DNA of 64,000 nt from Deroplatys truncata (Eukaryota > Arthropoda > Insecta > Mantodea > Mantidae): contig CM060977.1 of the NCBI GenBank assembly GCA_030765065.1, positions 100,721,795 through 100,785,794 of the forward strand. Reading direction: 5' to 3'. This document shows, in pieces, positions 226 through 61,140 of this stretch (the first letter of the stretch is position 1; every line of letters begins with the position of its first letter). Both the position numbers and the translations under genes were made by a program. The notes beneath the pieces were generated by a model. The model saw nothing but the letters and a program-made list of their open reading frames with translations. It did not search any database and had not been told where the DNA came from.

Positions 226-857
226 AAATCTGATGCGATACATTAAACATGACCTTCTTTACCCTGTATCGTATGTTTGTAGGTATACAAGCTATTCTTG
301 CTAAAGTTTATTTTTTTATCTACTACATTTTTATTAAAAAACCTTTTGCAGAAATAGCTGCATTAAACATTTCTTTAGAAAACAATGGTAATAGTGATGC
401 TGAAATGCTTAAGAACTGGATGCTATATACTGTCTCTAAAATTCCATACTGTTGCCATGCAATCTTCAGAAACAAGTGACGATGGGACTTATAAAGAAAG
501 ACAAAGTATTGAACAAATCGAACCATTAATAATGGATATGTTGGAAATGGCTGGTGCTACAAAAAAGTTATTTGAAATTAATTGCTTTACGTTTACCGGC
601 TATACAAGGTTCTACCAAATTTCTTCCGAATGAACAGGATTTCACAGGCTATTTCTAGAAAATTCAAGATATACATTTATTTGTCATGTAAATACTTTTA
701 GTATACCTTATTTTATTCAAAATTGTTAGAGCCATTTTTTAGAAAATCAAACATTTTCCATATAAAGGGCAGTTTGAAGTAGGGGGATTTGGAAGGTACT
801 GAACTAAATACCAAGTTTAGGTTCAGTAATTTTTGTTTTTAAATTCCGGTGTTCACA

Positions 858-914
<57 letters not shown>

Positions 915-1047
915 GGACCTTTTTCTAAAAATTCTTCTTTTGGATCCAGATGGCCGCAAAACATGTACATCCGTTGAAATCTCGATATAGAATTTTTGAG
1001 TGGAATGCAATATTTCCCCTACTTACTATACGTAGTAGAGAAAGTAA
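226..1047 (+). repeat. Fam-1, near full-length copy
   Basis: Complete module order: CTGATGYGATACATT start, CTTTCTYTACC inverted-repeat motif, TCTATCTACT block, AAGAACTGGA block, TTCCGAATGAA block, near-palindrome TAAATACCAAGTTTA, CA microsatellite, AAAACATGTA block, TTTTTGAGTGGAATGCA block, and a terminal GTAGTAGAGAAAGTAA. I know of no transposon class with this structure. Short open frames inside are not conserved enough between copies to call a gene. Confidence 0.85.
859..910. repeat. (AC)26 microsatellite inside Fam-1
   Basis: An uninterrupted AC dinucleotide tract of about 52 bp, at the same place in Fam-1 where other copies have 4 to 20 AC units. It follows the GTTCACAGAC motif. Confidence 0.97.
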
Positions 1048-1433
1048 TTATTTAGGGAGTATTTGGCAATAAAGCACATGGTTACTTCTAATACACAACT
1101 ATCGTATTACTCAACTATTAGAGTTAAGATATTTAGGTTGCTATTGTTTTACTATTATTCTTATTTTCAGGCGTGAACCGTTGTTTAAATCCGAAGAAGG
1201 CTTCTCCTTACAACTCTGTATTATTCTCGGCTACTTTAATTGGATTTTCTTGTTCATTGTGTGCCATCTTCTTCTAGAATCTAATTAGTGAGCACAAACG
1301 CCTTTTGTGGTGTTCTCCGCATTGTTTTACAGTTCCTGTTTTCTGTTCCGGCGCATTAGAGCTTGGAGGATCTATTTACGTATTTATGTCTAAATTGGAA
1401 ATGGTTATACAGAAGGAAATATTGATGAAAAAA
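1048..1433. other. Unassigned AT-rich spacer
   Basis: No recognisable gene, repeat shared elsewhere in the window, or RNA signature. It includes a less AT-rich patch near 1290-1375 without an open frame of note. Confidence 0.5.
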
Positions 1434-1526
1434 TAATCTATTTGTTACATCCACGTAATCTTCTTTACCTACTATCGTTAATTTTAATTGAACTCTTTTT
1501 ACGAAAGCTTATTTTTCTATCTACTT

Positions 1527-2255
1527 TGAGGCAGTATTTTAACACTTAAATGATTTCAGTCCAATTATATAATATAAAAAATAACAGCCCGCCTTAAAGT
1601 AATGTGTATAATATAATATATAAAAAGTATGTAACAGTCATTGTATTATGTTTATATAATTGTGTACATCTATAATAATGTTATGTGAATGTATTACGTA
1701 ATTTAATAATGTAGGAGCTGTGAGAATATAGGTCAAAAGTTGCGAACAATGAGGTAACAATGAGGTGACCTTGAGGCAGTAACGAATATGAAAATTTAAT
1801 AATACTACTAGTAATTCTTGAAAAATAATGTAATTTTTTAAAACAGTTTATAAATAGCCAATCAACAACTAATAAAGCTGAAAGTTAAATAAAAGTATTA
1901 TATTGGAGTAAAATTAGTCAACCAGACGTGAAATAAAAAAAATGTACAAATTTAAGTGCTAAACGGCAGTCGCTACACGGCAACATTCCTGAGCAGTTTA
2001 ATACGAATTCAGTATAAGTCATATAAAATTCATTACGGCGAGTATATTATAAAGCTTACGTGTTAAAAAGTGCAAGTAATTAATAAATAATCCCACAGCT
2101 CTCTATATCAGTGAAGTGCTATTTAATCGTGCGAAGGATTAATAAAAGGAGTGAAGTAAAACTTATAATATGTGTAAACCTACATTGTTTAGCCGCATCA
2201 CCCCCTGATAAGAGATACATGTTTCTACAAATTAATACTGACGTAGCCGAGGCAA

Positions 2256-2435: not shown

Positions 2436-2852
2436 ACTTCATGTTAATCGAGATAAACTTTGGCAAACAAATTCATTATATATTTCCTTGTAGGTACGGG
2501 ATGGCTATAGGATATTGAATCGATAGTCAAATGTTTAAAATCCGGGTCGCTATACGCTGGTCTAGAAATTCTCTACTCTTTCCACGGTATTGCGAGAAAT
2601 AAAATTCCTTCCGAATGAAGAGAAATCCACAAGCTATACCGAGAAAATGCAAGATATTCTGTGAATTTGTCATTTAAACATCTTAAAGATTGTTGTTTTT
2701 CAAAATCGTTAGACATTTTGAGAAAGTATAAAATCCTGGAAAATATTCCATGTAAAGAGTACTTTTGGATGGGCCATTTTCCTAAACTTCGTGTCGCATA
2801 CGAGGAGGATTCTGAACTTAAATCTCATGCTCTTGAGTTATTCTGCACATTA

Positions 2853-2855
<3 letters not shown>

Positions 2856-2891
<36 letters not shown>
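2856..2891. repeat. (AC)18 microsatellite inside Fam-1
   Basis: A second expanded AC tract at the homologous Fam-1 position, following a shortened version of the upstream block. Confidence 0.95.
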
Positions 2892-2893
<2 letters not shown>

Positions 2894-3029
2894 ATATTTT
2901 TCTAAACACGATTTTCTGGGATTTAAGTACCTTTGTAGTGATATCTCGGTATTGAATTTTTGGGTGGTATGCAATACCTCCTCTACCTACGATGCACGTT
3001 ATAGAGAAAAAGAAACACACAGAAGCAAA

Positions 3030-3089: not shown

Positions 3090-4324
3090 AATCTTTTAAG
3101 GCAGCTGTAAGCTTCCAATGTCTTAAAAGGGTTGAAGGACCCTCAAGTCGTTGTTTATTCGGAGTAATATTATAAAGCACGGCTATTGTAATATAAAAAT
3201 CCTCGTATCTTCAATCGAGGAGCGTAGGCATTTAAAATTAAAATCCAGTGCGCTCTAAAAGCAAGCGTCATGATACATTTGTAGGAATAGGCACGATATT
3301 TTTAGTACGCGAATGTCCCTAGCCGGTCTGATCACACTCTTATGCAAATCGTTCGATGTACTGCAGGCTGAAGAAGAGAAGAAAAACTTGGGTATGAACT
3401 AAATACTTAAGTCGTCAATAAAGTTTGTGGGGATGTGCCATAGAATAGAAATTCCTGCGTCGGCCGCAGAGAGGGGGGTTGGGTTGGGGGAAGGGAAGTG
3501 AGTGGTTTACGGGCCAAGCTTCCTGCCTGACTCCAGGAATCTTCAACTTGTGAGAAATGCCAGGCATCTTGACACCTGCTTCGTCCTTAATACTTCTCCG
3601 TTAAGTTTCTGAACCAGGTCGTGCGTTAACAAATCCATGACTTGGAGGAGAGGATTTTCGTCCTCACCCTCAACGCGGTGAGGCAAAATTCTCAACTGTG
3701 ATTAAGCACATGTATTTGAAACATCTGGTGCAGCAGTCAGCTAATCATATGATAAATGGAGAACTGTTGAACCCTATAAGGGAAATGTTTCCAGCTCAGC
3801 AAAGGCATAAACTAAGCCTTCTCCGATAGCGCGTGAAAACCTTCACATTGGAATTAATGAGCTTTTGATTCTAGGCCGAGGAACATTAGGACCGTACATG
3901 TAATGAACATAGTGGTTAGGAGATAATATAATGTATATGTGTTTTGCTCTGTAAATGTTTTAATTATAAAAAACTAAATTTAGTGACGCCGCTAAGGCAA
4001 CACGGACACAGTGAAAGAAGCAAGAACGGTATGGCTGACAACATTTGTCAGATGACTTGGAAACTCCTTGAGCTGGGGGTGCGAGATTCCAGTAGTTTTC
4101 CGAGATGCTTGCTGACGTGAGCCAACAACGGTAGCTGAAGCAAATTTAAAATGTATGAATGAACGGATGAGATTTAATTTATCTAAAATAGCTTGTGTTC
4201 TATAAAAGGCAGTGAGAGAAATGAACACGGGGGATTATGAATATTAACATTTTCCTTGCTTCGTGCTCAGTCCTCTGATTATAAGGGGAGAAGGGTTAAG
4301 GGGTTGAGGAATGGCGATGTCAAC
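3090..4324. other. Unassigned region with G-rich tract
   Basis: No gene or shared repeat recognised. Base composition is more balanced than the surroundings at 3430-3700. An open frame on the minus strand at 3992-4228 (78 codons) has no motif I recognise and looks incidental. Confidence 0.5.
3473..3495 (+). other. Potential G-quadruplex
   Basis: Four runs of at least three G separated by 2-base loops (G6 TT G3 TT G5 AA G3). This is a textbook intramolecular G-quadruplex pattern, and is unusual in such AT-rich DNA. Confidence 0.7.
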
Positions 4325-6865
4325 TGACAATAATTATTAAAGCCAAGTGTCAAGAAATACTAAAGCCAAGTGTCAAGAATTACTAAAGCCAAGTGTCAAG
4401 AATTATTTAGGCCAAGTGTCATTAATTACTAAAGCCAAGTGTCGTTACTTAAAGCTGTGTCATTAATTATTAAAGCCAAGAGCCATTAATTATTAAAGCC
4501 AAGTATAAAAATTACTAAAGCCAAGTGTCATTAATTATTACAGACAAGTGTCAAAAATTACTAAAGCCAAGTGTCAATAATTATTAAACCAAATTGTCAT
4601 TAATTGTTAAAGTTAAATTTCATTAATTATTCAAGCCAAGTGTCATAATAAAAACCAAGAGTCAATAATTATTAAAGGTAAGTATAAAAAATTACTAAAA
4701 CCCAGTGTCAATAATTACTAAAGCAGAGGTCATTAATGATTAAGACAAGTGTAAATAATTATTAAAGCCAAGTGTTAATAATTAATAAGCCCAAGAGTCA
4801 ATAGTCATTAAAGCCGTGTCATTAATTATCAAAGCTAAGTGTCAAAATTATTAAAGCCAAGTATAAAAAATTACTAAAGCAAGTGTCATTAATTATTAAA
4901 GCCCAGTGTCAAAAATTACTAAACCCAAGTGTCAATAATTATTAAAGCAAAGAGTCATTAATTGTTAAAGTTAAATGTCATTAATTATTAAAGCCAAGTT
5001 TCAAAAATTACTAAAACCCAGTGTTATTAATTATTAAAGCCAGGTGTTAATAATCACTAAAGCAAAGGTCATTAATGGTTAAAGACAAGTGTTAATAATT
5101 ATTAAACTCAGTGTTAATAATTACTAAGGTCAAGAGTCAATAATCATTGAAGCCGTGTCATTGATTATTAAAGCCAAGTATAAAAAGTTACTAAAACAAG
5201 TGCCATTAATTATTAAAGCCAAGTGTCAAAAATTACTAAATCCAAGTGTCATTAATTGTTAAAGTTAAATTTCGTTAATTATTAAAGCCAAGTGTCACTA
5301 ATTAAAGCCAAGTGTTATTAATACTAAAGCCAAGTGTCAAAAATTACTAAAACGCAGTGTCATTTATTACTAAAGCCAAGTGTCAATAATCACTAAAGCA
5401 AATGTCAAACTATTAAAGACAAGTGTCAATAATTACTACAGCCAATGTCAATAATTACTACAGCCAAATGTCAATAATTACAAAAGCCAAGTGTCAATAA
5501 TTACAAAAGCCAAGTGTCAATAATTACTAAAGCCAAGTGTCAATAATTACTAAACCCAAGTGTCAATAATTCCTAAAGCCAAGTGTCAATAATTACAAAA
5601 GCCAAGTGTCATTAATAATTAAAGCCAAGTGTCAATAACTACTAAAGCCAAGTGTCAATAGTTACTAAAGCCAAGTTTCAATAATAATTAAAGCCAAGTG
5701 TCATTAATAATTAAAGCCAAGTGTCAATAATTACTAAAGCCAAGTGTCAATAGTTACTAAAGCCAAGTGTCAATAGTAATTAAAGCCAAGTGTCAATAAT
5801 TACTAAAGCCAAATGACAATAACTACTAAAGCCAAGTGTCAACAATTATTAAAGCCAATTGCCATTCATTATGAAGGGCACATGTCATTAATTATTACAG
5901 CCAAATGTCAATAATTATTAAAGCCAAGTGTCAATAACAACTAAAGACAAGTGTCATTAACTACTAAAGCCAAGTGTCAATAATTATTGAAGCCAACTGT
6001 GAATAATTACTGAAGCCAAGTGTCAATAATTATTAAAACCAAGTGTCAATAATTATTAAAGCCAAGCGTCATTAATTATTAAAGCCAAGTGTGACTAATT
6101 ATTAAAGCCAAGTGTGATTAATTATTAAAGCCAAGTGTCAATAATTATTAAAGTCAAGTGTCAATAATTATTAAAGTCAAGTGTCAATAATTATTAAAGT
6201 CAAGTGTCATTAATTATTAAAGCCAAGTGTCATTAATTGTTATAGCCAGGTGGCAATAATTATTAAAGCCAAGTGTCAATACTTATTACAGCCAAATGCA
6301 ATTAATTATTAAAGCCAGGTGTCAATAATTATTAATGCCAATTTTTAATAACTACTAAAACCAAGTGTCAATAAAGTATATAATAATAAATAAATACCAG
6401 CCTGTAATCGCTCAGGTTGATATCCTCACCCAAAAATCAAAAATAAAGTAGGGATTAAACTACTTTAAAAAAAATGAAATTATTAAAGCCAAGCGTCAAT
6501 AAGCGTTAAAGCCAATTGTTAATAATTACTAAAGCCTAGTGTGAATAATTATTAAAGCCGAATTTCATTAATTATTAAAGCCAAGTGTCAATAATTATTA
6601 AATCCAAATGTAATTAGTTATTAAAGAAAGTGGAAATAATTATTGAAGCCAATTGTTAATAATTATTAAAGCCAAGTGTCATTAATTATTAAAGCTAAAT
6701 ATCAATAATTATTAAAGCCAAATGTAATTAATTATTAAATTCAAGTGTCATTAATTATTAAAGCCAAGTGTCAATAATTACTATAGGCTAGTGTCAATAA
6801 TTATCAAAGGCAAATCAGTAATTAATAAAGTCAAGTTTCAGTCAATTAAGGCAAGTGTTAACAAT
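4325..6865. repeat. 23-bp AT-rich minisatellite array
   Basis: About 2.5 kb of tandem units with consensus TTATTAAAGCCAAGTGTCA plus AATAA, period 22-24 bp, on the order of 105 units. Variation is structured. Distinctive variants (AAGCCGTGTC, AAGCRRAGGTC and ATTGTTAAAGTTAA) recur at 294-358 bp, mostly about 340 bp, in the left half. The middle (5460-5860) is more homogeneous. Units are interrupted at 6378-6480. There are no conserved spacers and no unique sequence between units, so this is a satellite, not a CRISPR. Confidence 0.95.
6378..6480. other. Non-satellite insertion in the minisatellite
   Basis: About 100 bp without the 23-bp motif, containing CAGCCTGTAATCGCTCAGG and an A-rich stretch at its right end. 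It may be a retroposed fragment, but no clear target duplication was seen. Confidence 0.6.
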
Positions 6866-12360: not shown

Positions 12361-12380
12361 GATGATAGACTTAAGAAAAA

Positions 12381-13230
12381 TCTGAAGTGATACATTCACG
12401 TGACTTTCTCTACCCTCTATCGCTTATTAGTAGGCATACAAACTTTTACCAAAGCTTACTTTTCTATCTACTTCATTTTAATGCAAATAAACATTTACAG
12501 AAATAGTTACATTACACATTTCGTTATACATATAAAGTGAACAGCGACAGTCACATGTTTAAGAATTAGACGCTATATGCTGTTCCTAAAATTCCATACT
12601 GTTTCCATGACATCGAGAAATAACTGAATATTGATAGGACTTTAAAAGATTGACCAAATATTGAACAATTTGAGCCATTAATAACGGATATCTCAGAAAT
12701 GGCTTATTACACAAAAAAGTTAGAAAAAAAGTATGTGTTTTAAAGAGATCCATAATGTTTGTGGAGTACGTTTTCGTCAATCGCTTGACGTTTCGGAGAT
12801 ATACAAGATTATACAAAATTCCTTTCGAATGAAGAGGACTTTAGAGACCATTCCCAGAAAATTAAAGATATGCTTTTTAATTGCTATGTAAATATCTTTA
12901 ATATATGGTATTTTAATAGAAATTGTTAGCCATTTTTTTATAAAATAAAAAGTTTCGAAGAATATTCCACATAAATTGTAGTTTGGAGTAGGGGAATTTG
13001 TTGAAAATCTTCGTGTAGCATCTGTAAAAGGTACTGAACTTAAATACCAAGTTTGATGTTTATCGGACTTTTCGTTTTTGAGTTATGCATCACAAACACA
13101 TATTTTTTTTTAAAATGCTTTTTCTTTATACAGGGAGGTCAAAACCTGTATTTGCGGTGAAATGTCAGTACGGAATTTTTGGGTGGAATGCAATACCTTT
13201 TCTACCTACTCTGTACGGGGTCGAGAAGTA
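12381..13230 (+). repeat. Fam-1, near full-length copy
   Basis: Starts TCTGAAGTGATACATTC, then TGACTTTCTCTACCC, and ends CTCTGTACGGGGTCGAGAAGT. All internal blocks are present. The microsatellite position here is unexpanded. Confidence 0.85.
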
Positions 13231-14440
13231 AAGAACAATGTGTGGTTTTTATATTATATTAGTAAGTTAATTCAAATTATTATTTTCTCACTCATCTGAA
13301 CTGTTAATACAAAGAACAGAAATAAGTACACAGGACTCAGGTAAGAGTATAATGAAACAAGTTTTGTAATAAAATATATCCTAAGAACAGCTGAAAGGTA
13401 GGAGTACGGTTCCTACTGATTTTGTTGAAGGTTTGTGGAGGCGGGGATTTGGTTGTGGAAGTAGACAGGCTGGAAGAAATGTAAGGCGTTTTTCTCAGCA
13501 AGGAATGGAAACCACACCACAAATCCTTTAATCTACTTTACCGCAGCATTCACAAAGTAGAGGGGTTTCTTGTAACATCCTCATTTGTTTTCTCTTTCTT
13601 TTACTCATTTCTTTCTTTGTCTTTTATGGTTTAATACGTAGAAATATGTTCATACTAATACCAAAATTTATATTATCATATAAAGCTATTGAATTTTTAG
13701 GTGAAAGTTATAATATTTTAGATTAATTAATTATATCATATAAATATTCTATAGACATGAATCATTTTGGCCAATTTATTTTACAAACTGTCATTTTTAA
13801 TAGCCCAGTGACATGGTTAAATTCCTGAGGCGCTCCCCTTTAAGCCCATTGGATCCTTTCGGTATGTCTTTTTTCTCAGTTTTACGCTTTAGCGTATGAA
13901 ATTTGATCCATGCACTTCACTTTTGCGGTGAGTTGTATGAAAATTTGTATACATAATATAAAAAGTGTATCTAAAGAATACAGCATACATTTTAGGATGG
14001 TTTTATTCATCAACTCACAAAAAAATAATTTATACTGGAAATACTAGACAAATTTTAAGCCCAACAACTTCATAGAAACAAAGATTTATTTCTCTACAAC
14101 TAATAGCATTAGGCTCAATAAAACTCTTGTGGTCATTTAATTTAAAGTATTATAAAATATCAATACTACACTTCTGACAAATTTGAAAGCGTAACGCAGT
14201 TTTAAAAAAATTGCATTTTTTTCGCTGATTAAAAATATTTAATTGTATTATATGAGATACTATTTGAGCTAGAACTTTTGAGATTTTGCACAGTCATTTA
14301 TTTATTTACTCATACTTACTGTGAGTGAATAGATTTAAAATAAAAGAAGTATCCCTTAAAGTAATGGAGAGAAGGTGATCTATATTTCAGGATGAACATC
14401 GATTAATGTTTATGAAAAATGGTAGAAAGAAGACGAAAAA
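13231..14440. other. Unassigned AT-rich region
   Basis: No gene or shared repeat recognised. A 61-codon minus-strand frame at 13337-13522 looks incidental. Confidence 0.5.
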
Positions 14441-15003
14441 AATCTATTCACGTGGACTTCTCTACCCAATATCTACAAACTATTGCAAAGGTTAGTTTTT
14501 CATCTGATTTGTGTTAATGTATACAAAGTTTGCAAAAACAGTCGCATTAAACGTTTTTAGTGACAGTGAAAGTTTTGAAATCTGGCAAGAAATGTATTCT
14601 TTCCATGGCGTTGCGAGACCCAAGTGACAAGTAGTGATTAATTCTAACCCACAACAACCGTAATGGCTGATATCAAAAAGTAAAAAAGTTTATTTAAAAT
14701 TTGCGTTTTAAGGATATCTACATTTTTAGTGTACTAAATAATACTGTCTTCTAGGCTTTATCAATTATAAAAAATAACAAAATTCTTTACGAAAAAGAGG
14801 ACTACAGCTATTCTCAGAAAATTCAAGATGTACATTTTATTTGTCAAGTAAACACCTTAACATATACTTTAATCAAGTACGTTTTAGCAATTTTTAGAAA
14901 ACGAAACACTAACGAAAACTTATCCATTGTAGGTTGAGATACGAGAAATTGTCTCATACTTTGGGAATGCTCACCTTAAATACCAAGTTTTGTATTTAAC
15001 CTC
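14441..15003 (+). repeat. Fam-1 copy, 3' truncated
   Basis: Starts with AATCTATTCACGTGGACTTC and runs through the TTCCGAATGAA-equivalent block to the near-palindrome TAAATACCAAGTTTTG near 14975. It lacks the microsatellite and 3' terminus and is followed at once by a further forward copy. Confidence 0.75.
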
Positions 15004-15023
15004 GAAGGTGACAATGAAAACAA

Positions 15024-21983: not shown

Positions 21984-21987
21984 AAGG

Positions 21988-41085: not shown

Positions 41086-41097
41086 TATCACATTAGA

Positions 41098-46625: not shown

Positions 46626-46629
46626 CTTT

Positions 46630-48471
46630 TTACTTTCTCTACTACGTATAGTAAGTAGGGGAAGTATTGTATTCCACCCAAAAATTCGATACCGAGATTT
46701 CACCGAAAATACATGTTTTGAGACCCCCGAATCCAAAAAAAGCATTTTGGAAACATGTCCGTGTGTATGTCTGTGTGTCTATCTGTGTGTGTGTCTGTCT
46801 GTGAACAGCATAACTGAGAAATGTGAAGTGGTATATTTGCGTTGGAAGATGCTTCATGTTTATCTGCACAACGTATGGAAGCCAATTTGTCGCGGTCACT
46901 TCGTGTTATCTTATTGCTGGGCCCCTGTTATTGTTTTATTATTTTGCATTTTGGGTTCATTGTGCTCCGGCTAGCTATTATTTCTCGGTCGAGCAAATCT
47001 CTTAAACAGGGTGTGTAAACGGAAAGGATTTTGTTACTGAAAGATAACACTGATAAAAGAATTTGTTTTTACACTTTTATTACCGTCACAATTAAGTTCA
47101 CATATTGATTCGTGATACACGCCAAACTGAAACTGTTCTATTTTCTAATATCACTATAATCACTTATTTACTGCACATTATTAATTCGCGTGTTTCACAT
47201 TTATAACAAACTTCAAGACGCGAGAGATTCTGTAAAATTGCGACGTGTACTTTATGTATGCTTCCGTTGAACTACGCGACGTGTAACCCGCGAACGATTC
47301 TGATGAACTAACTGTGCGACATATAACGCGTGAATGCTTCTGTTAGAATGACGAAATCTGCCTCTGACTTTAGCTTTTTATACTCCCACACCCGGATATG
47401 CCTAAAGATTATAACCGAGCTGCTATTGGTTAATAAAACGCGCCAACATTAGCGTCTATTTTTATATCCAATCAAAAATTACGAACACATATGCTCTAGG
47501 GAAAATATTCCCGCTATTTCAAAGAAAAGCGCGCCAATCTGACGTCATTTGTTTGTCTCTTCTAACTAATATTCAACTCACCCCCTCACACATTGTTATC
47601 CGCTCCTATTGACAGTTTCAGTGAGGCCGTGTAAACTTATTTCCTAACAATGCTTATAATTAACAAACATCTCAAATCAATGTCATAGAATAATGCTTAT
47701 TTACACTACAATCACTCTGGCATTTATATTATTGTGATACAAATTACTGCCACAAACGAAGAGTCGGATAAACACCAAACTTGGTATTTAGGTTCAGTAT
47801 CTTCCAAGGATGCGACATGAAGGTTTTCAAGAAAATCCCCCCACCCCAGATTACCCTTTACATGAAAGATTTTTCGAAAATTTTAATTTTCTCAAAAATG
47901 GCTCTAACGATTTTGATTAAAATATCATATGTTTAAGATATTTTTATGACAAATGAAATGTCTATTTTGAATTTCCTGGGAATGTCTCCAAAAGTATTCT
48001 TCATTGTGAACGACTTTTGCATAACTGGTAAACCATAAGAGATAGACAAAATTTTACTACACAAAAATGTAGATCGCGTTAAAATACACAATTTATGTCA
48101 TATACATTTTTTTTTGTTGAGTGAACCATTTTCGAGATATTACTTGTTATTCCCTTAAATTTTTCAATACTTATTTTCTCAAACGGAAATTCGTTTTTCA
48201 TTTTTTTGTCTTGGATATGCAAAGAGTGGGAAAGGGAATGGTGCTGCACCTAGCAACCAGCTATTAAGAGATATGTATGTGCTTAAAGGCTACTGTATTA
48301 CCAAATTGCCCTTGTAAATATATATTCCCCTTACATCTACAAGAAAATTAGCAATAAGATAGACTGTGCAAATGTTTATCTCGATTAACATGAAGTAGAT
48401 GGAGAATAAGCGTTTGTATAAATAGTTTGTACAAGAGTAGAGAAAGTCATGTGAGTGTAAGACATCAGGTT
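46630..48471 (-). repeat. Fam-1 copy, reverse, split by solo LTR-B
   Basis: Left terminus TTACTTTCTCTACTACGTA and right terminus ACAAGAGTAGAGAAAGTCA. The block CAGCATAACTGAGAAA is cut at 46823 and resumes at 47755 as AACGAAGAGTCGGATAAAC. Without the LTR it is an almost complete second-subfamily member. Confidence 0.9.
46824..47754 (-). mobile_element. Solo LTR, family LTR-B, copy 1
   Basis: 931 bp. Flanks AATG (46820-46823) and AACG (47755-47758) are a 4-bp duplication with one transition. Minus strand begins TGTGGCAGTAATTTG and ends ACCACTTCA. It contains a CCAAT box (ATTGG on the plus strand at 47425-47429) and TATA (GTATAAAAAG on the minus strand at 47374-47383), followed by imperfect tandem repeats. 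It matches 52001-53022. No coding sequence. Confidence 0.88.
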
Positions 48472-48944
48472 TTTTATGGTCTTGTAAACCCAACAAATAA
48501 AAGTCGTTTTTGACAAATCTGACTATCGATTTAGCCTACTTTATTCCCCCTATACCTTAAACAAAACGCATAATCCTTCTTTCGGTATTTCCGTAGCATC
48601 CGATAATATTTTGAGTAGTTGGGATTTTAAGAGCTGCTATCAACAGCCAGTCGAGTTTGGTGGTCTCTGATATAATTAAATGACGCTCTAATTTCCCTTG
48701 GTAGCTGTAGAATTCTCATTTCCATCTTTCTGAAGCTATAGCAGTTTATCATGAAGGGCCCGGCTCATCCCTCTCAACACAAGAGGCTCCTTAATCCCTT
48801 GTCATGCATCAGATGAGACAGTGGACAGTTTATTTATAGCTTCATTGTCCTATGTGGAATGCCCAGGCTTTGTGATTAAAGGAGAGCGGTTCTTCGATAT
48901 AACGAATAGTATTCGGTGTTGCATTTAGGTTTGGTTAAAAACGC
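48472..48944. other. Spacer with Fam-1 traces
   Basis: 48505-48545 resembles a short Fam-1 scrap (AAATCTGACTATCGATTTAGC). Otherwise nothing recognised. Confidence 0.45.
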
Positions 48945-49255: not shown

Positions 49256-50067
49256 ATGTGTTACATTCACATGACTTTCTCTACCGTATATAATTTATTA
49301 ATAGGTATAAAGGCTATCCAGACGAAACCTTATTTTTCTATCTACTCATTTTAATCCCGATAAACGTTTGAAGAAATAGGTGCACTTAATATTTTTTATA
49401 AATTCAAAGGGAAGAACGATAGTCAAACTTTTAAGAACTGAACGCTAAATGTTGGCCTTAAAATTCCATAATTTCCATACAATCCTAAGAAACACCTGAA
49501 TGTCGGCAAGAATGACGAAGTATTGAACACTTCCAACCATTAATAACGGATATCTCGGTGTCGGCTTTTGCCACAAAAATAATTACTTGCAGTAAATTGT
49601 GTGTTTTAAAGAGGTCTACATTTTTGTGTAGTACTTTCTAGTCTACCGCATAATGTTTACCAGTTATACAAGATTATACAAAATTCCTCCCGAATGAGGA
49701 CTACTTCACAGACTATCCCCAGAAAATTCGAGAGATACGTTTTATTTCTGATGTCAGTATCTATAAGATGTAGTCTTTTAGTCAAAATCTTTTAAAGACA
49801 TTTTTGTGCCGGGAGTTTTTGAAAATCTTCGTGTCGCGTTGCATCTTTAGAAGGTACTAAACCTAAATAGTAAGTTTGGTACTTTCCGACTTTTCGTTTT
49901 TCAGTTATGCTGTCCACAGACACGCACACGCGGACCTTTTTTTCTAAAAATGCTTGTTTGCATTCAGGAAGGGGGCTATTTATGCGTACTTCCGGCGGAA
50001 TCTCGGTATACAATTTTTGGATGGAATGCAATACTCTTCTTTCTTACTGTACGTATTAGAGAGAACA
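49256..50067 (+). repeat. Fam-1, near full-length copy
   Basis: Starts ATGTGTTACATTCACATG, then ACTTTCTCTACCG, and ends ACTGTACGTATTAGAGAGAA. The CA tract is short. Confidence 0.85.
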
Positions 50068-50625
50068 AAAATGGTGCAAACTATTCGTATACGTCACTGT
50101 ACTTTTGTTTGTTCAGAAAATATATGTCCACACAAAACTTTTCGCACCATGCAAAGAATTAGGTGTGTAAAATCGGGTTTCCCAGTGCTAACATATCTGT
50201 TATTTTACGACAGAATGCAACTATGTAAATTGAACCATGTTTCGTCAGAGAAGAATATTAAGCATGGGTCAATTACTTATTCAGTGACACTTCGCAAAAT
50301 GCAATTACAGAACTTTACCCAACCCTGATGATCACATTTAAAATAAGGTGTTGCAAAAAAGCATATATTTAGAGAAAACAAAACAACAGGCGAGACATTC
50401 ACTCAATTTTGGATATTGAACTCTCGAGTGTAAATCTAAGAAGATGCCAGAAATGTGAAGGCAAAGAAGGAAGGATAACATTTCCGACATTTCTTATCAT
50501 AGTGTATATACTTATTATCATTGTAAATATAACTATGAAAACGTGAGGTAGTTATGGGGATACTATAACTGTTTCAGCAGGAGTCGAGCTGAGACCGACG
50601 CGCGAGCCGTCGTTGGGTGGCCCAA
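50068..50625. mobile_element. Rearranged copy of the long-TIR mariner-like element
   Basis: 50340-50625 matches the right end of 9376-10405 in the same orientation: transposase C-terminal coding (RRDIHSILDIELSSVN, RRCQKCEGKEG), then the inverted-repeat arm (TTATCATTGTAAATATAAC, ACTGTTTCAGCAGGAGTCG). In contrast, 50085-50335 encodes the first-Asp block on the minus strand (FFSDETWFNLHSC, NNRYVSTGKP). The two halves therefore face each other, so an inversion or two joined fragments is needed. The plus-strand 124-codon frame 49954-50328 is antisense to this and not a gene. Confidence 0.7.
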
Positions 50626-51498
50626 AGTTAAGGAAAAGCATTTAGAATTTAATATTTTTTTTAATAGTTCCAGTTTTTTTTGGCATTACTTTATCTTCTC
50701 ACTCTTTTATTAAGATTATATTTACGTTTTATTCTGTTTAATTAATTTCTAATGTTTTTATATCCAATCGGGCGAATATTATTACCCCATAATACACAGC
50801 TCAAAGATAAGGTCAGAACATTCTGATGGTTGTGTTTTTCATATTTTATGTGTAGCTACAACAGCTGTGTTATAGGAATATTATTGCAGCGAACTATCTT
50901 CGTAGTGTGGTATGAAAGTGAAAATATTTATTTTGGTGCTGCTATATCCATGAAATTTTCAGTTGCTTACCCGAGCTGGCACACTGCACGCTCGGGCGAA
51001 TGCATTCATTATGAAAATGACGTTAGAATCTTGGGAGCAAAATTACGCATTCGTGGGTAAGAAATGCTAATTGGAACCAAATCCTCTCCCGTCTACTGAA
51101 TTTGTGTTATTAAAGCGCTTCCATCAAGCAAATATCTACCGCTCGGGATTTCAGAGCCTGCAAAATCAAAATATTTACTTTGGCATGTCCAACCAAATGC
51201 ACCTGCTATAATAGGAAGGAATAACTGCCGTTCTCTGCCGCTGGTTTATTCAAATCACACTGTCGCTAGCGAAGCGTGCAGAGTTGAGTCTCTCTCCATA
51301 ACCTTATTGTGTTATTTTTAGAATTAAGAGGAGGGATTCTTTTATTTTATATAAATCATAATGGGAATTTATTAGAGTTTGTGGTTTCTGGAATAGTAGA
51401 TAACTTTTAACTTCTCTGCCAAGTAGATAGAGCAGTCATTGTATTTCATATAAAACTTGATATCAAGTTTTCATCGGAAATATGTTATAATAAAAATA
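50626..51498. other. Unassigned region
   Basis: The frame 50830-51060 (76 codons) has no motif. A 7-bp stem CCCGAGC/GCTCGGG flanks a short loop near 50970-50996. Nothing else recognised. Confidence 0.45.
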
Positions 51499-52235
51499 TC
51501 TGATGTGATACATACATATGGCTTTCTCTAACCTCTATCGTTTATTATTCTTATTAAAGCTGATATTTCTGTCTGCTACATTTTAATCAAAATAAGCCTT
51601 TGTAGAAATAGCGACATTGCACATTTCGTCATAGACACAAAGATAACAGCGATAGTCAAATGTTTAAGAACTGGACACTATACGCTGGCCATAAAATTTC
51701 ATGCAATCGCGAAAAAACGACTGAATATTGACAGGACTTAAAAAAATTACCAAGAAATGATCAATTCGAAACTTTAATAACGGATATCTCAGAAAAGCCT
51801 TATGCCACAACAATCTTATTTCAAATAAATTGTGTGTTTTAAAGAGGTCTGTATTTTTTTGTGAAGTACGTTCTCGTCTATCACTTAAAGTTTACTAGTT
51901 ATACAAGATGATACAAAATTTCTTCCAAATGAAGACTATTCCAGAAAATTCAAGATATGCGTTTCATTTGTATTGTAATTATATTTAATATATATTATTT
52001 TGATACGGTAATTTGTATCATAAATTACCTAAATGTAAATAATGATTGTAATATGAATATGTATTTTTATGTGACATTGATTTTAGATGTTTATTAATTG
52101 TAATTATTATTGGAAAGTGAATTTATACGGCTTTACTGAAACTGTCAATAATAGCGCAATAATGCAGCGAGGGGGTGAGTTGTTTATCATTACTGGGAAC
52201 AAGGAAGTTACGTAATGTTTCGCGCCTTTTCGGTA

Positions 52236-52379: not shown

Positions 52380-53221
52380 TCGAGTCCGTGATAGATCGCC
52401 CCCAGTTCAACAAAATTCTCAATACCTTACACGTCGGTCGCCCAGTTCATCAAAATTTCTAGCACGTTACACGCTGTCTTCAGTGAGTCAGTTCGTCATA
52501 AGTTACGCGCAGCAGAATTACGAGAATCTAAAATATTATACAGTTAAATATACACAAAGTTGAAGTACGTGAGTTAAAAGTGATAAGTAAGAAGTGATTA
52601 CAAACAGTTTCAGTTTGGCGAGTATCTAAATCAATATGTAAATGTGTTAGTGAACGTGTTCGACAATAAAAATTATACAACCAATTTCTTCATTAAGTGT
52701 AATTTCTGGATAAAAGATTCCTTTCCGATTCACAACCTGTAAGAGATACAAGTTCGACCCAAAGAGCTAGCTGAGGACATTTAAAGTGAATTATTTCAAA
52801 ACTGATGCAAATTGCTACGACAGATGGAGCTACAAACAAAACAAGGAGTGACGTCACAAGATGGCAACGCGTGAAGTAAGCAGCACAACCTGATCTACAA
52901 GTTCTAATAACTTACGCTACACAAACTACGTAAGAAACATTATTCACTCGCAAATTGGCTTCCACAACGTGGGGCTAACAAATACAAAAACATATCACGT
53001 AAACAAGCATCATTCCGTTGCAATTTTAATGAAAATCGTTAGAGCCGTTCTTTAGAAAATAAACAATTTCGAAACATCTTCCATATAAAGGGTAGTCTGG
53101 GATGGGACGATTTTCTTTAAAATTATCTTGTCGCATCTTACAAGGTACTGAACCTAAATACCAAGTTTGGTATTTATCCGAATTTTCGTTTTTGAGTTAT
53201 GCTGTTCATAGGTACATACAC

Positions 53222-53350
53222 AATTTGGAAACTGTGGAACACTGCCATTGCTGTGCCGTCACTACTGGTTCCGGTCGCCCGCTGTCTCCTCTCACTTTCT
53301 CCTCCCTCCCTGGGCATATGTACAATATCCCCAGGCCGAGTCCCGTCCGA
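53222..53350 (+). repeat. GC-rich repeat, second copy
   Basis: TTGGAAACTGTGGAAC, CATTGCTGTGCCGTCACT and CTCACTTTCTCCTCCCTCC parallel 23933-24010. It has inserted into, or replaced, the Fam-1 3' end. Confidence 0.6.
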
Positions 53351-54008: not shown

Positions 54009-55446
54009 CAGAGTAGACCATTTAAGTTGAGACTGCTCAATATCACCAAAACTAAGCGGTATAGAAAGAAATGTCTTTAATAAAAGATATTATTGCTTGA
54101 TATTATAAAGAAAAGTAAATGACTTGTTCGTGTTTCGTTGTTATGGTCATTTTAGACGAAATTTAATTTTTTTTAAATGGAAACCTAGCTGTTTTATTTT
54201 GTTTTCTCATTCCTCCAAAAAAATCTAAACATTTGTATAAAGCACTTCAATTGTTCTTACACCAAAGTAAATAAAGCCAAAAATTCTGAATAGCTGTGTA
54301 AGAAGAGCGCAATGAATGGTTGGACCATCCATGGATAGTCATTTTGAGGATCATTTAGAATTTTCGTTGCTTAATACAAGAGTTGTTTAATTTTTTATGA
54401 GGATTGGAAAACACATACAAAATGTAAGTTCCAATTTTAAAAAGTCTGATGTGCTACACTCACATAACTTTCTCTACTCTTGTTCAAACACTCTTCTCCA
54501 TCTACTTAATGTTAATCGATATAAAAATTTGCAGAAACTATCGTACTACTAATTTTCTTGTAGGTGCAAGGGGAATGCGATAGGCATTAAACAATAGTCA
54601 AATATTTTAAGAGCGGGTTGCTATGTGGATCATTCTATTCTCTTTGCATGTCCAGAATACATAAAAAAACGAACAATGAATTCCCATTTGAGAAAAAGTA
54701 TAAGTATTGGAAAATTCAAACAAGTAACAAATAATATCTCGGAAATGGTTCACTCGACAAACAAAAAATAAAAAAAAAATAAAAGCGTATATGACATAAA
54801 TTGTGTGTTTTAACGAGATCTACATTCTTTGGGTAGTAAACGTTTGTCTATGTCTTAGGGTTTAGCAGTTATGTAAACGGTCTTTTGGGGACATTACCAG
54901 AAAATTCAAGATATACGTTTCATTTGCCATCAAAGTATCCTAAACATATTATATTTTATTCAAAATCGTTACAGCCATTTTTGAGAAAATAAACATTTTC
55001 TAAAAATGTTCCATATAAAGGGTTTTCTGGGGTGGGGGTGATTTTCTTGAAAATCTCGTTTAGCATTTTTGAAAGATAGTGAACCTAAATACAAGTTAGG
55101 TATTTTCCGACTTTTGAGTTATGCTGTTCACAAACAGACACTCACGTGGACCTTTTTCTAAAAATGTATTTTTTATTCAGGAGCCCTCAAAATATGTATT
55201 TCCGGTGAAATCGCAATATCGAATTTTTGGGTGGAATACAACACCTCCACTACTTACTGTATGTAGTAGAGAAAGTAGAAAAATTTAATTCACTCTAAAA
55301 CGACCATCACAACGTCCTACAAATAAAACACGACTAATGACAGCTACTCTCCCCCATAGTATCAAGCAACTTTCATTAAAGACATTTCTTTCTACAACGC
55401 TTAGTTTTGGAGATATTGCACAGTCTCAATTAAATGGTTCACCCTG
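54009..55446. mobile_element. Element with ~170-bp terminal inverted repeats enclosing Fam-1
   Basis: Left arm 54009-54178 and right arm 55288-55446 are inverse copies. CAGAGTAGACCATTTAA with TTGAGACTG, AAAACTAAGCG, AGAAAGAAATGTCTTTAAT and TTATGGTCATTTTAGA are mirrored by CAGGGTGAACCATTTAA, AAAACTAAGCG, AGAAAGAAATGTCTTTAAT and TGATGGTCGTTTTAGA. TA flanks both ends. The inner part is ~265 bp of unknown sequence plus an entire Fam-1 copy. No transposase is present, so it is non-autonomous. Confidence 0.8.
54444..55277 (+). repeat. Fam-1 copy inside the inverted-repeat element
   Basis: Starts TCTGATGTGCTACACTCACA and ends ACTGTATGTAGTAGAGAAAG. Second subfamily. The 3' end abuts the right inverted-repeat arm within ~10 bp. 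Confidence 0.88.
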
Positions 55447-55448: not shown

Positions 55449-56164
55449 TTAAATTGCCACAAAAAAAAGGATTAAGATTTGTTTTTACTCGAATAGTATT
55501 TACTTTCAATTGTCCTCTAATAGATAATACTGTTAAGGATATGTTCATACTAACGGTTTTAGATTGACTATTCTTTAACTAATATCTGAAATTCATTATT
55601 ATAAGAAATAATTTGGCCTAATATGCGTCGTTGTACTCTACCTTTATTACTCTATGCCCATTATGGTAATTATTAAGTATTAAAAATACCAATATCTTAA
55701 GAATTTTATTGTTTTTCTTGTCCCTTTTGGCGTCACTAATTATGTAGTTGAATGATAATCCATTATTTTATCCGTAATGTCTCTTCAAAACTTAGCCATC
55801 TTTTGAGTAAAGTTTTCTGTCTGTTGATTTTCCTTGACAACCACTAGAACTTCATTTTTTGTTATTTATATTTTACTGATTAAACAATGTTTTATTACAA
55901 TGAACACCTTCAATAATGACTTTGATAAAATTATAGTTAATTTAACAATATTTTTTCAAATAATTTACATTATGAATAGAACATAAAACTTGTTTGGGCG
56001 TTTTCATAAAACTTCTGGAAATTAGATTATTTTATCTATTTCTCATTTGTTATTTTCCTCCTCTCCTTCTTCTTCTTTGTCTAAGCATAACAAAAGAGGT
56101 TCAACTAAACATTTTAATATAATCATTTGCAATATTATTCCTGTTACAGCCTAAAAGTTCGATT
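55449..56164. other. Unassigned AT-rich region
   Basis: No gene. A pyrimidine-rich patch lies near 56060-56085. The frame at 55337-55567 spans the inverted repeat and is not considered coding. Confidence 0.5.
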
Positions 56165-56584
56165 TGCAAATTTCGCCAGAAATGCATGTTTTGAGGTCCC
56201 ACAAATAACTAATCTAAAAACTTCACATGTGTGTCACTGAACAGTATAACTCAGAAACAAGGTCTTCTATAAAACAGAAATTTATATTTAAGTTCAGAGA
56301 CCTGAAGATTTTCAAGAAAATCTCCCTAACACAAACTGCCTTTACATGGAAAATTTTGTGTTCTTTTATTTTCCAAAACAGCTATTAGGATTTAGATTAA
56401 AATCATTTTCTTCGTTTTTAATGAATTTCATATAACAGGTAAACCGCAAGGAATACACAAACTCTTATCACACAAGAAATATAGATCTCGTTAAAGCACC
56501 GAATTTGTGTTACATATTTTTGACGTTGAGTATTTCCGAGAAATTCCTCATTATTAGTTAAAATATTAAGAAACCTTTTTTTTT
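56165..56584 (-). repeat. Fam-1 fragment, reverse, interrupted by mariner
   Basis: Contains AAATGCATGTTTTGAGG, CAGTATAACTCAGAAAC and AACAGGTAAACCGCAAG with internal deletions. It breaks at a TA (56586-56587) where a mariner begins. Confidence 0.7.
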
Positions 56585-57324: not shown

Positions 57325-58030
57325 TTATTATTTTCTCTACTATTTGCTTATAGTAGGTAGATGAACTCCAACCAAGATTTCACCACTAATACTTGTTTTA
57401 AGGTCCAATGAATACAAAATAAGATATATCATTTTAGCAAAAGGTCAGTGTGTGTTAAATACAAAACCTGGTATTAGAGTTCAGTATCTTCCAGAAATAC
57501 AACATGAACATTTTCAGCAAAATCCCTTCGCTCCAAAACACTTTACATGAAACTGTATTTTGGTATTTGTATCCCAAATAAAACGTATGTCTAAAACCTT
57601 CTAATAGCCTGTAAACTGATTTTCATTTTGAATGGCTTTTGTGTGACTGGCAAACGTAAGAGAAAGACAAACTCTTACAATTTAATTACTGTTAGCCATT
57701 AACGAGGATTTCCTTGTTTCTGGTTTGAATGTTCAAATAAATTTCTCAAATGGGAAGTCATTATTCACCTTTTTTCTCTAGTGGACATGCAAAGCGAATG
57801 GAGTTTCAAAGCCATCACAAAACGACCAGCTCTTGAAAGGTTTATCTATGTCTTATGCCTACCATATTTTCCTATTTCCCGTTTGCATGTACAAGGAAAA
57901 TATAATAATACCGTTTCTGCAAGTGTTTATCTCAATTAACATGAAGTAAATAGAATAATAAGATTTTTTAAGAATAGTTTTTGAATAATGGCTGGAGGAA
58001 GTAATGTGAATATAAAACATTAAATGCTTT
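57325..58030 (-). repeat. Fam-1 copy, reverse, with deletions
   Basis: Left terminus TTTTCTCTACTATTTGC, near-palindrome degraded (CCTGGTATTAGAGTTCAGTA), right end AGTAATGTGAATATAAAACAT. The CA tract is lost. Confidence 0.75.
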
Positions 58031-58373: not shown

Positions 58374-59594
58374 CGAGGGGTGAACAGAAATTAAGGTTAC
58401 AAAGACTGCATTGAAACATCTACATTTTATTTCATACAACCAACTGATAGTACATACATTAAGTTATTTTTTGACATAGTCACCACATTGGCTTAGGCAC
58501 TTGTCGCTTTGTGGGATGAGTTTGAATATTCTCTCCTGGTAAAAATCATGCCCATATGTGTTCAGCCACGTTGTCGCGAAACTTTTCACCTCCTCGTCTG
58601 AAGCAAATCGTCGGCCTCCTAGGTACTCCTCCAAGGAGGAAAAAGGTGAAAGTCGCTTAGAGTGAAGTCCGGGTTGTAGGGAGGGTGGTCGATGATGCCC
58701 CAGTGAAAGTGCTTCAACAACGTGGTGGTCTTCTGGGCTGTATACGGTCGCGCGTTGTCGTGAAGGAAGATCACCGCCTCGGCTTGAATTCCTTGCCGTT
58801 TCCTCCTGATCGCTTCACACAATCGTGTCAAGGCCTCGCAGTTCGGTCAGAAGTTACTGTATGCCCTCTTTCAAAACCTCCACGGGTATAATACCCGCGC
58901 TGTCCCAAAACAGTGTAGCCATTACCTTCCCGACAGATGGCGTCACCTTAAACTTCTTTATCTTTGGAGAGGAGGGAGTTTCCACTCCATTGGCGTCAGT
59001 TTACTGCTGGGGGTGTAGTGGCGGGTCCATGATCATCACCAGTGGCAGTGTTTGAAGAAAACTGTTCCCTTCCATGGAGAATCGTTACAAAAGTTGCCAA
59101 CTTACCCCCACGCATTTCTCCATGTGTTGGTTGGGCAGATTTTGTGGAACCCATGGGGAACAAACTTTAGGGTATTGCAGAATATCGTGAACAATGTAAC
59201 GAACGCTTCCAAACGACATTCCCATTCTATCGTCATATGCCGTAACGTGATCCTCCTGTTTTCCTAAATCAGCTCCTCCACGGGAACTGTGTTCAAATGT
59301 GTTGATGCTGTACTGGGTCGGCCACTGCGATACTCGTCGGTGACGTTTTCTCTAGCTGCAAACGTTCGACACCATTCTGCAACATGCTGACGATGTTACA
59401 ATCTCTCTGTAAACCTCTATCAGTTGCCAGTGAATTTCAGCCATGGTTACATGTTACGACCACGGAAATCGAATAACTGAGCGGATTTCTTCGGGAGACT
59501 GGTTTTCCAAACGTATAAGAATTACCGCATACTGCTAGTTTCTCTATAATGGACAAAACTCCAGGTCTTGTAACCTTAGTTTCTGATCACTTGT
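58374..59594 (-). mobile_element. Mariner element nested in the ACAGGG element
   Basis: Inverted termini: GGTGAACAGAAATTAAGGTT at 58379 and, read from the right, AGTGATCAGAAACTAAGGTT. Length ~1.22 kb, close to a full-length mariner. The expected TA flank is clear on the right (near 59595) and appears mutated on the left. Confidence 0.85.
58441..59540 (-). pseudogene. Mariner (SETMAR-type) transposase, near full-length, decayed
   Basis: Minus-strand blocks, N to C: RLENQSPEEIRSVIRF, MAEIHWQLIEVYREI, MGMSFGSVRYIVH, VCSPWVPQNLPNQHMEK, then MATLFWDSAGI, then an open 70-codon frame with FLHDNARPYTAQKTTTLLKH (second catalytic Asp, HDNARPH-like) and IDHPPYNPDFTLSDFHLFPP (third catalytic Asp block, PDxxxSD), then YLGGRRFASDEEVKSFATTW and LNTYGHDFYQERIFKLI, ending KCLSQCGDYVKK and stop near 58465. 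The first-Asp block is corrupted near 59010-59050. Frameshifts and stops throughout make it non-functional. The C-terminus matches the SETMAR/Hsmar-like mariner group. Confidence 0.88.
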
Positions 59595-59614
59595 TATAAA
59601 TACAGAAAAACGAA

Positions 59615-59945
59615 TGGTAAATAAACTGCTGAAATGGATACTGAAGATGTTGAAGGTGGCCCCCTGCAGCATCAATACACAGTTGTGCACAGCCCATATT
59701 CAGATACACCAGGCGTAAAGTTCCGATATCACTGGTGGCAACTTCACCGTTGCTGGCTTTTAGTTCCTGTATAGTGTGTGGATTTTATCTTATACCTTGT
59801 TGTTCCCCACAGGAAAAAACTCACACCTTGTTAGATCCGGGGAACATAGTCGCCACTCGTGGACTCATTCGTCAAGCGAACCTGTTTTCACATATGCTTC
59901 CACAATTTGAATTCTTTCTTGTATCGAGAAAGTAATTTTCCAGCA
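59615..59945 (-). pseudogene. Transposase remnant of the ACAGGG element
   Basis: On the minus strand, FSIQERIQIVEAYVKTGSLDE (an N-terminal helix-turn-helix start, 59870-59940) is followed after a large deletion by NPHTIQELKASN, then SDIGTLRLVYLNMG and AQLCIDAAGGHLQHL (C-terminus, 59640-59745). The catalytic core is entirely missing. Blocks of this type occur in mariner-superfamily transposases that end CIxxxGxHFEHLL. Confidence 0.7.
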
Positions 59946-60261
59946 TGCGAACAGCAACATGTATATCAACTAATGAAATAAACTGAAATGCTGAGAGAAG
60001 AATGCAACCACTGATTGGAGAGAATAATGACAACTATCGATTATTCATATGGCATTAAATTGACCATTGTACTGCAGCTTGATTCAATTTTAACACAAAA
60101 TCATTTTATTCACAACGGAAATATCGTATTTGCATTCAAAAGGGAGACGGGCCACTTTTATCTGGGCCGCCCTGTATTTCTGCATAGCTTTATCTCAATT
60201 AATATGAAGTAGATATGAAGATAAGCTTTGCAAGAATGCTTTATAGAAGCTGTAAAAAAGA

Positions 60262-61140
60262 ATCTGATGTGATACATTCACATTTCACACATGACCTTCC
60301 CCACCCTCTATCGTTATTCGTGGGTATACAAACTATTCCTACTAAAGCTTATTTTTCTATCTATTACATTTTTATCCAAAATAAACCCTTTCGTTATAAT
60401 ACAAACAGAACAGTGATGGTAAAATGTTTAAAATCTGTACGCTATAGCTGTATAGCTTTAACTATAGTTCGCCCTGAAATTCCATACTGTTTCCTTGCAA
60501 TCACGAGAAACAACCGAACGCTGAAAGGACTTTAAAGAATGACCAAGAAGTGAACAGTTCGAACTTTTAACAGATGATATCTCAGAAATTGCAGATGGTA
60601 CAAAAAATTATTTGTAGGAAACTGAGTGCTTTACAGAGATCAACACTTTTTGTGTAGTACGTTTTCGTCTATCGCTTAATGTTTACCAGTTATACAAGAT
60701 TATAAGGAATTCCTTCTGAATGAAGAGGACTTCAAAAGCTATTCCCAGAAATTTCAATGTATACATATTATTCTTAATGTAAACATATTTAATATATTGT
60801 ATTTTAATCTAAATATTTAGGAGTAATTTTTTAGAAAATCCATTTTTTTAATTGTTCCTTAAAGAGGTAGTTGGGGTAGGAGGATTTTCTTGAAAATCGT
60901 TGTGTCCTATCTTTGAAAGCTACTGAATGTAAATACCAAGATGGGTATTTATTTGAATTTTTCTTTTGAATTATGCTGTTAGCACACACACAGGCAGACA
61001 CACACAAGTGCGTTTTTCTAAAAATGCCTTTTTTTATTCAGGGGTCTTCAAAATACGTATTTCCGTTGAAATCTCGGTATCAAAAATTTTGGGTGGAATG
61101 TAATACCTTCTCTACCTACCATGTACGTGGTAAAGAAATC
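60262..61140 (+). repeat. Fam-1, near full-length copy
   Basis: Starts ATCTGATGTGATACATTCAC directly after the 5' end of a reverse copy, giving a 5'-to-5' junction. Ends ATGTACGTGGTAAAGAAATC. Frames at 60215-60535 (106 codons) and 60973-61251 (92 codons) lie in its 5' and 3' parts. Confidence 0.87.

Follow-up and report, generated by a model that had tools for sequence, protein, structure and literature searches.

In a window of 64,000 nucleotides from the mantis Deroplatys truncata (GenBank assembly GCA_030765065.1, contig CM060977.1, positions 100,721,795 to 100,785,794), the abundant interspersed repeat Fam-1 is, with a probability of about 0.93 as judged from sequence, a Helentron-associated interspersed element (HINE): a non-autonomous, DINE-1-like element that a Helentron family in the same genome would mobilise through its Rep/helicase/endonuclease protein. 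The observed basis for this assignment is its anatomy, sharp ends, T-run targets, lack of a detectable duplication, and filled sites with paralogous empty counterparts, together with a 5′ region and 3′ end in common with an element that carries an open Rep-PIF1-endonuclease frame; on these grounds the earlier note on this window erred in assigning the repeat to no recognised class. The class itself is already known, and Fam-1 is filed as a new HINE, compared with known HINEs through published descriptions. What is remarkable in Fam-1 is its amount in the genome and its habit of self-nesting, and its identification provides a name and a likely mover for a repeat that may be the most extensive in this genome.

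Copies were located with an nhmmer profile of 851 positions, built from 20 full copies. The 28 copies available comprised 27 from other places in the genome plus the window copy at 41098-41925, and eight of them were excluded as partial or compound. The Helentron sense of Fam-1 is that of the + strand of the youngest full copy in the window, 41099-41923, which serves as the reference for its anatomy:

41103 to 41113, + strand: 5′ subterminal inverted repeat ACTTTCTCTAC, read from the sequence
41103 to 41136, + strand: 5′ hairpin holding that repeat (DINE-1-type inverted repeat), from sequence and fold
41219 to 41251, + strand: GT-rich microsatellite within the copy
41698 to 41704, + strand: internal T-run, empty here, with nested Fam-1 at this site in other copies
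41886 to 41896, + strand: 3′ subterminal inverted repeat GTAGAGAAAGT, read from the sequence
41897 to 41914, + strand: site of the putative 3′ stem-loop, ATGTG-N7-CACAT in the consensus but imperfect here
41919 to 41925, + strand: 3′ terminal T-run, read from the sequence

Fam-1 starts with T5 followed by ACTTTCTCTAC inside a hairpin, and closes with GTAGAGAAAGT, 22 further bases and about six Ts, the 3′ repeat starting 39 and ending 28 bases short of the 3′ end. Both subterminal inverted repeats (subTIRs) are 11 bp long, with letter conservation of 0.84-1.0 in anchored copies (5′ end anchored in 25 of the 28, 3′ end in 24, both in 22). The ends are sharp: the top letter reaches 0.75-1.0 inside the element vs 0.28-0.56 outside, and similarity among copies stops at the terminal T-runs. 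The ends described earlier were indeed inverted, but one of them is subterminal, as the motif then placed at the 5′ end is the 3′ repeat in Helentron sense, beyond which lie ~28 more conserved bases and then TTTTTT, most of them already covered by the coordinates then given. Fam-1 shows no coding capacity, with a longest stop-to-stop frame of 75 codons in the consensus and of 65-103 codons in the 20 full copies, where its strand and position vary, and the reported lack of a transposase in the repeat is borne out. A SINE would be expected to have Pol III promoter boxes or a tRNA-like head; an ARAGORN scan of the window found no tRNA gene. The microsatellite is a GT tract in the consensus and appears as a CA tract at 854-914 of the window.

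Fam-1 inserts into T-runs, and its nested sites have paralogous empty counterparts. The T-runs flanking the 22 two-ended copies measure 2-7 on the left and, on the right, 5-8 in 18 copies and 0-2 in the other four. Flanks of these copies shared 2.32 words vs 2.47 with shuffled partners (385 of 500 shuffles reached 2.32); insertion thus proceeds without detectable target duplication, in agreement with the earlier note, and a duplication of Ts alone would be compatible with this result. Short inverted ends, T-rich flanks able to mask TT duplications and Tc1/mariner-like fragments in the window would equally be expected of a miniature inverted-repeat transposable element (MITE) derived from a cut-and-paste transposon with terminal inverted repeats, its 2-bp duplication hidden in the flanks, and DINE-1 itself has been termed a MITE (PMC2374699). 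However, the 3′ repeat of Fam-1 ends ~28 bases inside the element end, no flank duplication was seen beyond the T-run, and Fam-1 shares its 5′ region and 3′ end with a Rep/helicase element. With no inverted repeats at both very ends and no fixed target duplication, we reject such an origin as very improbable.

The candidate partner was found among 152 matches to Helitron_like_N in the genome (150 of 291 candidates scored), where one class has long open frames. Its frame P0001 extends over 2,324 codons from stop to stop and contains Helitron_like_N (Rep; E 1.2e-27), PIF1 (E 1.9e-28), DUF6570 and Herpes_teg_N domains, and its last 235 residues, scanned alone, match Exo_endo_phos_2 at E 1.6e-6 (28.4 bits vs a cut-off of 27.4). 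The partner is a Helentron, with Rep, a PIF1-type helicase and a C-terminal AP-like endonuclease in one frame, the endonuclease being a mark of Helentrons (PMC4067079). In all three Helentrons fetched, the 5′ side is Fam-1 sequence; the innermost 5′ block of L062 has 94.1% identity to model positions 1-720 over 709 positions, and at the 3′ end of L060 the last 39 bases match Fam-1 in 37. With the same 11-bp subTIRs, Fam-1 and its partner belong to one family by the published 11-bp subTIR rule. Exact copies of the Helentron-type 3′ end number 39 in the genome, 35 of them within 8 kb after one of 49 Rep matches hand-picked from the Helitron_like_N list, mostly of one class, so that 35/49 is no share of all Rep matches. 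The three Helentron copies are 98% alike over ~7 kb, a near-identity that suggests recent movement. The Helentron frame (L060:627-7598) includes a stretch of repeats of 63 bp (21 residues, many of them K, E and R), where alignments of one copy to another are offset by multiples of 63. A second Helitron_like_N class, at loci L009-L028, is mostly broken by stops, with many members nearer to the Pfam model.

Canonical Helitrons begin with TC at the 5′ end, terminate in CTRR at the 3′ end and insert between A and T. Fam-1 could be a derivative of one, being of rolling-circle type in a genome with other, mostly decayed Helitron_like_N copies; yet its partner has the C-terminal endonuclease mark of Helentrons, and we reject this scarcely credible derivation on the ends and targets of Fam-1, which ends in T-runs and inserts into them. 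We take Helraiser to be a canonical Helitron. It resembles the helicase part of the partner protein (PDB 7lcc, E 1.4e-22, residues 1605-2062 only), which, unlike Helraiser, ends in an endonuclease domain. A further reading supposes that the Helentron uses other ends and only carries a captured Fam-1 copy on its 5′ side, consistent with extra Fam-1 blocks on the 5′ side of all three elements and on the 3′ side of two. We consider it improbable: the innermost block continues past the internal T-run into the body of the element, no intact subTIR was seen between that block and the frame in L062 and L064, and at its 3′ end the Helentron shares the subTIR and stem of Fam-1.

For Fam-1 as a HINE, the 5′ hairpin is supported by both fold and sequence variation. 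The consensus 43-mer folds with a z of -3.9 (0 of 200 shuffles as good), and in 71 distinct 5′ ends (86 before removal of duplicates) 90.2% of hairpin cells pair, with 19 double-sided changes vs a maximum of 15 in 500 shuffles, a comparison in which related sequences can beat shuffles. The 3′ stem, ATGTG-N7-CACAT, is only 5 bp long and pairs in 91.5% of cells. Several results weigh against the assignment to this class. The bare 34-mer of the 5′ hairpin folds less well (z -2.05, 4 of 200 shuffles), and a control slid by -1 gives 18 double changes against the 19 observed, with 43% of its cells pairing. At the 3′ end, the folding energy of the stem does not stand out from that of shuffles (z -0.7, 40 of 200), and no double change appears over 72 distinct ends (76 before removal of duplicates). 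On the side of the partner, the endonuclease domain is unlisted at E 0.01 in a scan of whole P0001, and none of the three Helentrons examined has Fam-1's own 3′ part. The last 60 bases of L060 match Fam-1 in only 43 (ungapped), compared with >95% overall between partner and HINE in the Culex cases (PMC4067079); this is <80%, and Fam-1 and its partner are therefore different subfamilies by the published 80% rule.

Movement of Fam-1 would, we infer, involve nicking, peeling and rolling-circle copying, with the Helentron protein acting in trans. The protein would nick within the T-run at an element end, with the subterminal repeats and 5′ hairpin serving in recognition; the helicase would peel off one strand while replication refilled the donor, and copying would run on until it met the first 3′ subTIR with its stem-loop and T-run. 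The peeled strand would then enter a T-run elsewhere, leaving the target unduplicated. Some nested products may be mobile as units, such as a Helentron within Fam-1 that has the outer Fam-1 5′ end as well as its own.

Such a form appears to be present in the genome. L060 and L061 both have two 5′ blocks in tandem, and their upstream stretches (L062 and L064) are 98.1% alike from the outer 5′ end on. An exact search for the junction between the two blocks gave 29 places, of which two are separated by 1.4 kb; downstream, a listed Rep match follows at 14 (4.6-5.7 kb past the junction) and the Helentron 3′ end at 13 (9.6-10.1 kb), an upstream control for the 3′ end gave 0, and neither feature is listed at 15 places. 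The simplest reading, as a rolling-circle model predicts, is insertion of a Helentron into the internal T-run of a Fam-1 copy, followed by copying from the outer Fam-1 5′ end to the inner 3′ end, although some loci are possibly segmental duplications. Through this two-5′-end form, where rolling-circle copying starts and stops becomes testable from sequence.

HINEs are described as having subTIRs near the 5′ end and some tens of bases inside the 3′ end, a 3′ palindrome, a T-rich target left unchanged and variable terminal Ts (PMC4067079); HINEs and DINE-1 together are characterised by subTIRs, by an inverted repeat at the 5′ side and a stem-loop at the 3′ side, by a microsatellite, by insertion into T-rich targets that stay unchanged, and by the lack of genes (PMC4067079, PMC2374699). 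Fam-1 resembles HINEs and Helentrons in subTIR placement, putative 3′ palindrome, T-rich target, variable Ts and unchanged target, and resembles HINEs in having a Rep/helicase partner that bears an endonuclease, but its subTIRs are 11 bp compared with 12-15 bp in mite HINEs, and its 3′ subTIR lies 28 bases from the end compared with ~38-60 (PMC4067079). With DINE-1/INE-1 of Drosophila it has in common the pairing of a subTIR and an inverted repeat at the 5′ side, a microsatellite in that part of the element, a putative 3′ stem-loop, TT insertion and no open reading frame (PMC2374699). It differs from DINE-1 in its subTIR (11 bp vs 13 bp), 3′ stem (5-bp vs 7-11-nt) and microsatellite (GT vs GTCY-rich), in a consensus without central tandem repeats, and in number, with 165,079 exact 5′-end matches compared with 334 to 6,297 copies by the criteria of PMC2374699.

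The longest T-run of the Fam-1 consensus (~7 to 9 Ts) lies at model position 623, and because of this built-in target Fam-1 would go on inserting into its own copies. The sequences examined contain 24 Fam-1-in-Fam-1 junctions, a count that takes both sides of some insertions and includes loci fetched for Fam-1 or Helentron; 14 fall at model 619-629, and nesting was also found at the second-longest T-run (~527) and near T5 at ~120. One 3-kb stretch (L069) holds five pieces arranged as 5′, 5′, whole, 3′, 3′, and uninterrupted copies show the empty internal site. Exact searches of the genome returned 18,247 occupied 5′ self-junctions (control 0), 13,211 occupied 3′ self-junctions (control 0) and 79,282 empty self sites (control 1), which at face value puts 14-19% of exact self sites as occupied; these are places and not independent events, with composites and tandem arrays counted repeatedly. 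No preference for its own site beyond T-run length is shown: the same numerator over T-runs elsewhere gives 2.8% for runs of at least 7, 6.2% for at least 8 and 12.7% for at least 9 (78, 35 and 17 runs in 63 kb), and nesting needs only a taste for long T-runs because those of at least 9 elsewhere may be hit nearly as often. The excerpts of PMC4067079 make no mention of HINEs nesting in their own internal T-run, and no prior report of it was noticed in literature listings, which is weak evidence of absence.

The high count could instead be mostly secondary, through tandem duplication, recombination or the copying of old composites. The composite junction at 29 places, a 3.4-kb tandem array that repeats one empty site 31 times and chains of 5′ junctions 608-671 apart all point that way, whereas junctions vary in T number and neighbouring letters, nesting also occurs at the model ~527 T-run and near T5, and among the first 100 listed 5′ junctions (contig C1) a matching 3′ junction lies at 834-904 bp, one element length, in 14 and within 3.5 kb in 30 (upstream control 1). 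We regard a mostly secondary origin as possible but unlikely, and repeated self-insertion remains our preferred reading. The array, at C1:20306-122587 near the contig start, has its 31 empty self sites at a spacing of ~3,408 bases, with a piece of Fam-1 in its unit. At C1:13833732-13843086, 22028068-22033263 and 26123579-26132956, nested 5′ junctions occur in pairs on the - strand at a spacing of 443-451 and are mirrored by a + strand pair ~4-8 kb off, a larger composite of divergent Fam-1 chains. With one short internal site present by the thousand in both filled and empty form, Fam-1 provides a natural experiment on Helentron insertion.

In 26 stretches sampled at round coordinates from the 4.29-Gb genome (63,000 bases), Fam-1 accounts for 16,575 bases or 26.3% (bootstrap 15.9-37.5%), a share that would scale to ~1.1 Gb, perhaps a quarter of the genome, and that bears out the earlier suggestion, conditional on a similar density genome-wide, of a very large family. 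The first 48 kb gave 29.2% and the second 15 kb 17.0%, both part of the 26.3%. Against uniform density, matches were found in 16 of the 26 stretches and none in 10, and Fam-1 makes up only 1.3% of the 20 loci L009-L028, which are no random sample because they were chosen for Rep homology. On both strands of the whole genome, the exact 5′-end pattern was found 165,079 times and the exact 3′-end pattern 153,173 times (reversed controls 0 in each case). Assuming 87% mean per-site likeness, 165,079 exact 19-base matches would correspond to ~2.3 million ends (1.2 million at 90% likeness, 3.6 million at 85%). Of the 15 sample matches >500 bases, five are 76-81% identical to the consensus, two 85-87% and eight 93-98%, suggesting one old and one recent wave, with a consensus that was itself built from young copies.

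In morabine grasshoppers (PMC7754599), whose genomes are of similar size and likewise rich in rolling-circle elements, Helitrons of all kinds account for 17-22% of the assembled sequence and 23-29% of the reads, and in gomphocerine grasshoppers they make up 7-20% of repeat content (PMC7486953); a high rolling-circle content of large insect genomes is therefore not new. The morabine figure sums all Helitron families (PMC7754599), in contrast to ~26% of our sample for Fam-1 as one family with old and young subfamilies. This suggests that a single rolling-circle family can form about a quarter of a 4.3-Gb genome. To our knowledge, one rolling-circle family at this level is unusual, and at ~1.1 Gb Fam-1 would rank, by bases, with the largest single transposon families known in animals. 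We are evenly divided on whether this one Helentron/HINE family acts as a self-feeding repeat, in which every copy brings along a favoured kind of target, growth to ~1.1 Gb makes new targets, and self-nesting has given rise to a new mobile form, the two-5′-end Helentron, that spreads as a unit.

Within the window, Fam-1 gave 42 profile matches covering 18,103 of 64,000 bases (28.3%), 22 on the - and 20 on the + strand, and none in the reversed window. The matches are pieces and hence outnumber copies: nine span both ends, 17 include the 5′ end and 18 the 3′ end. The 15 matches >600 bases have 73-95% identity to the consensus, the youngest being 41099-41923 and 47751-48474. An abundant repeat with more than 25 full or partial copies, the same order of modules and short inverted ends, as first described, is thereby upheld, and all eight copies then listed were recovered near their coordinates, that at 226-1047 as two matches (224-879 and 894-1047). 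The Fam-1 matches, with model positions and, where given, identity to the consensus, are:

1 to 108, -: piece, model 2-118
106 to 227, -: piece, model 2-123
224 to 879, -: piece, model 132-850, 74.3%
894 to 1047, -: piece, 5′ end of the 224-879 copy past the CA tract, model 4-157
2436 to 2584, -: piece, model 642-772
2601 to 3009, -: piece, model 8-437
12376 to 13231, -: full copy, model 4-850, 76.8%
14449 to 15001, -: piece, model 185-829
15022 to 15846, -: copy, model 46-849, 79.1%
17535 to 18019, +: piece, model 38-558
18195 to 18328, +: piece, model 545-713
21135 to 21985, -: full copy, model 2-849, 78.7%
21996 to 22437, -: piece, model 18-502
25711 to 26081, +: piece, model 159-529
26102 to 26337, +: piece, model 640-850
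26347 to 26548, +: piece, model 613-807
26563 to 27324, -: full-span copy, model 1-850, 78.6%
27320 to 27442, -: piece, model 3-124
27409 to 27531, +: weak piece (E 1e-4), model 755-849
31359 to 32085, +: copy, model 2-733, 84.1%
33100 to 33215, +: piece, model 730-832
33526 to 33729, -: piece, model 2-234
34072 to 34884, -: full copy, model 2-850, 73.0%
38387 to 39179, -: copy, model 22-849, 74.3%
39981 to 40247, -: piece, model 332-590
40256 to 41101, +: older copy, its 3′ end adjoining the young copy 41099-41923, model 17-849, 76.3%
41099 to 41923, +: youngest full copy, anatomy reference, model 2-850, 94.9%
45170 to 45346, +: piece, model 19-172
45431 to 45627, +: piece, model 191-384
46465 to 46626, +: piece, model 424-622
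46627 to 46829, +: piece, model 1-183
47751 to 48474, +: young copy, model 170-850, 94.3%
49256 to 50070, -: full copy, model 2-841, 76.4%
51407 to 51484, +: weak piece (E 2e-4), model 4-87
51494 to 52004, -: piece, model 335-850
53016 to 53222, -: piece, model 142-349
54440 to 55280, -: full copy, model 2-850, 87.4%
56147 to 56403, +: piece, model 48-342
56408 to 56581, +: piece, model 416-595
57326 to 58028, +: full-span copy, model 2-849, 77.9%
60258 to 61142, -: full copy, model 4-850, 74.3%
63499 to 63564, +: piece, weakest match (E 8e-4), model 787-849

The window also holds two tandem arrays, at 4321-6848 (23-bp unit, ~112 copies) and 35413-36755 (74-bp unit, ~18 copies), and Tc1/mariner-like transposase fragments (DDE_3 and HTH_Tnp_Tc3_2 matches) at 19042-19470 on the - strand and 43621-44052 on the + strand.

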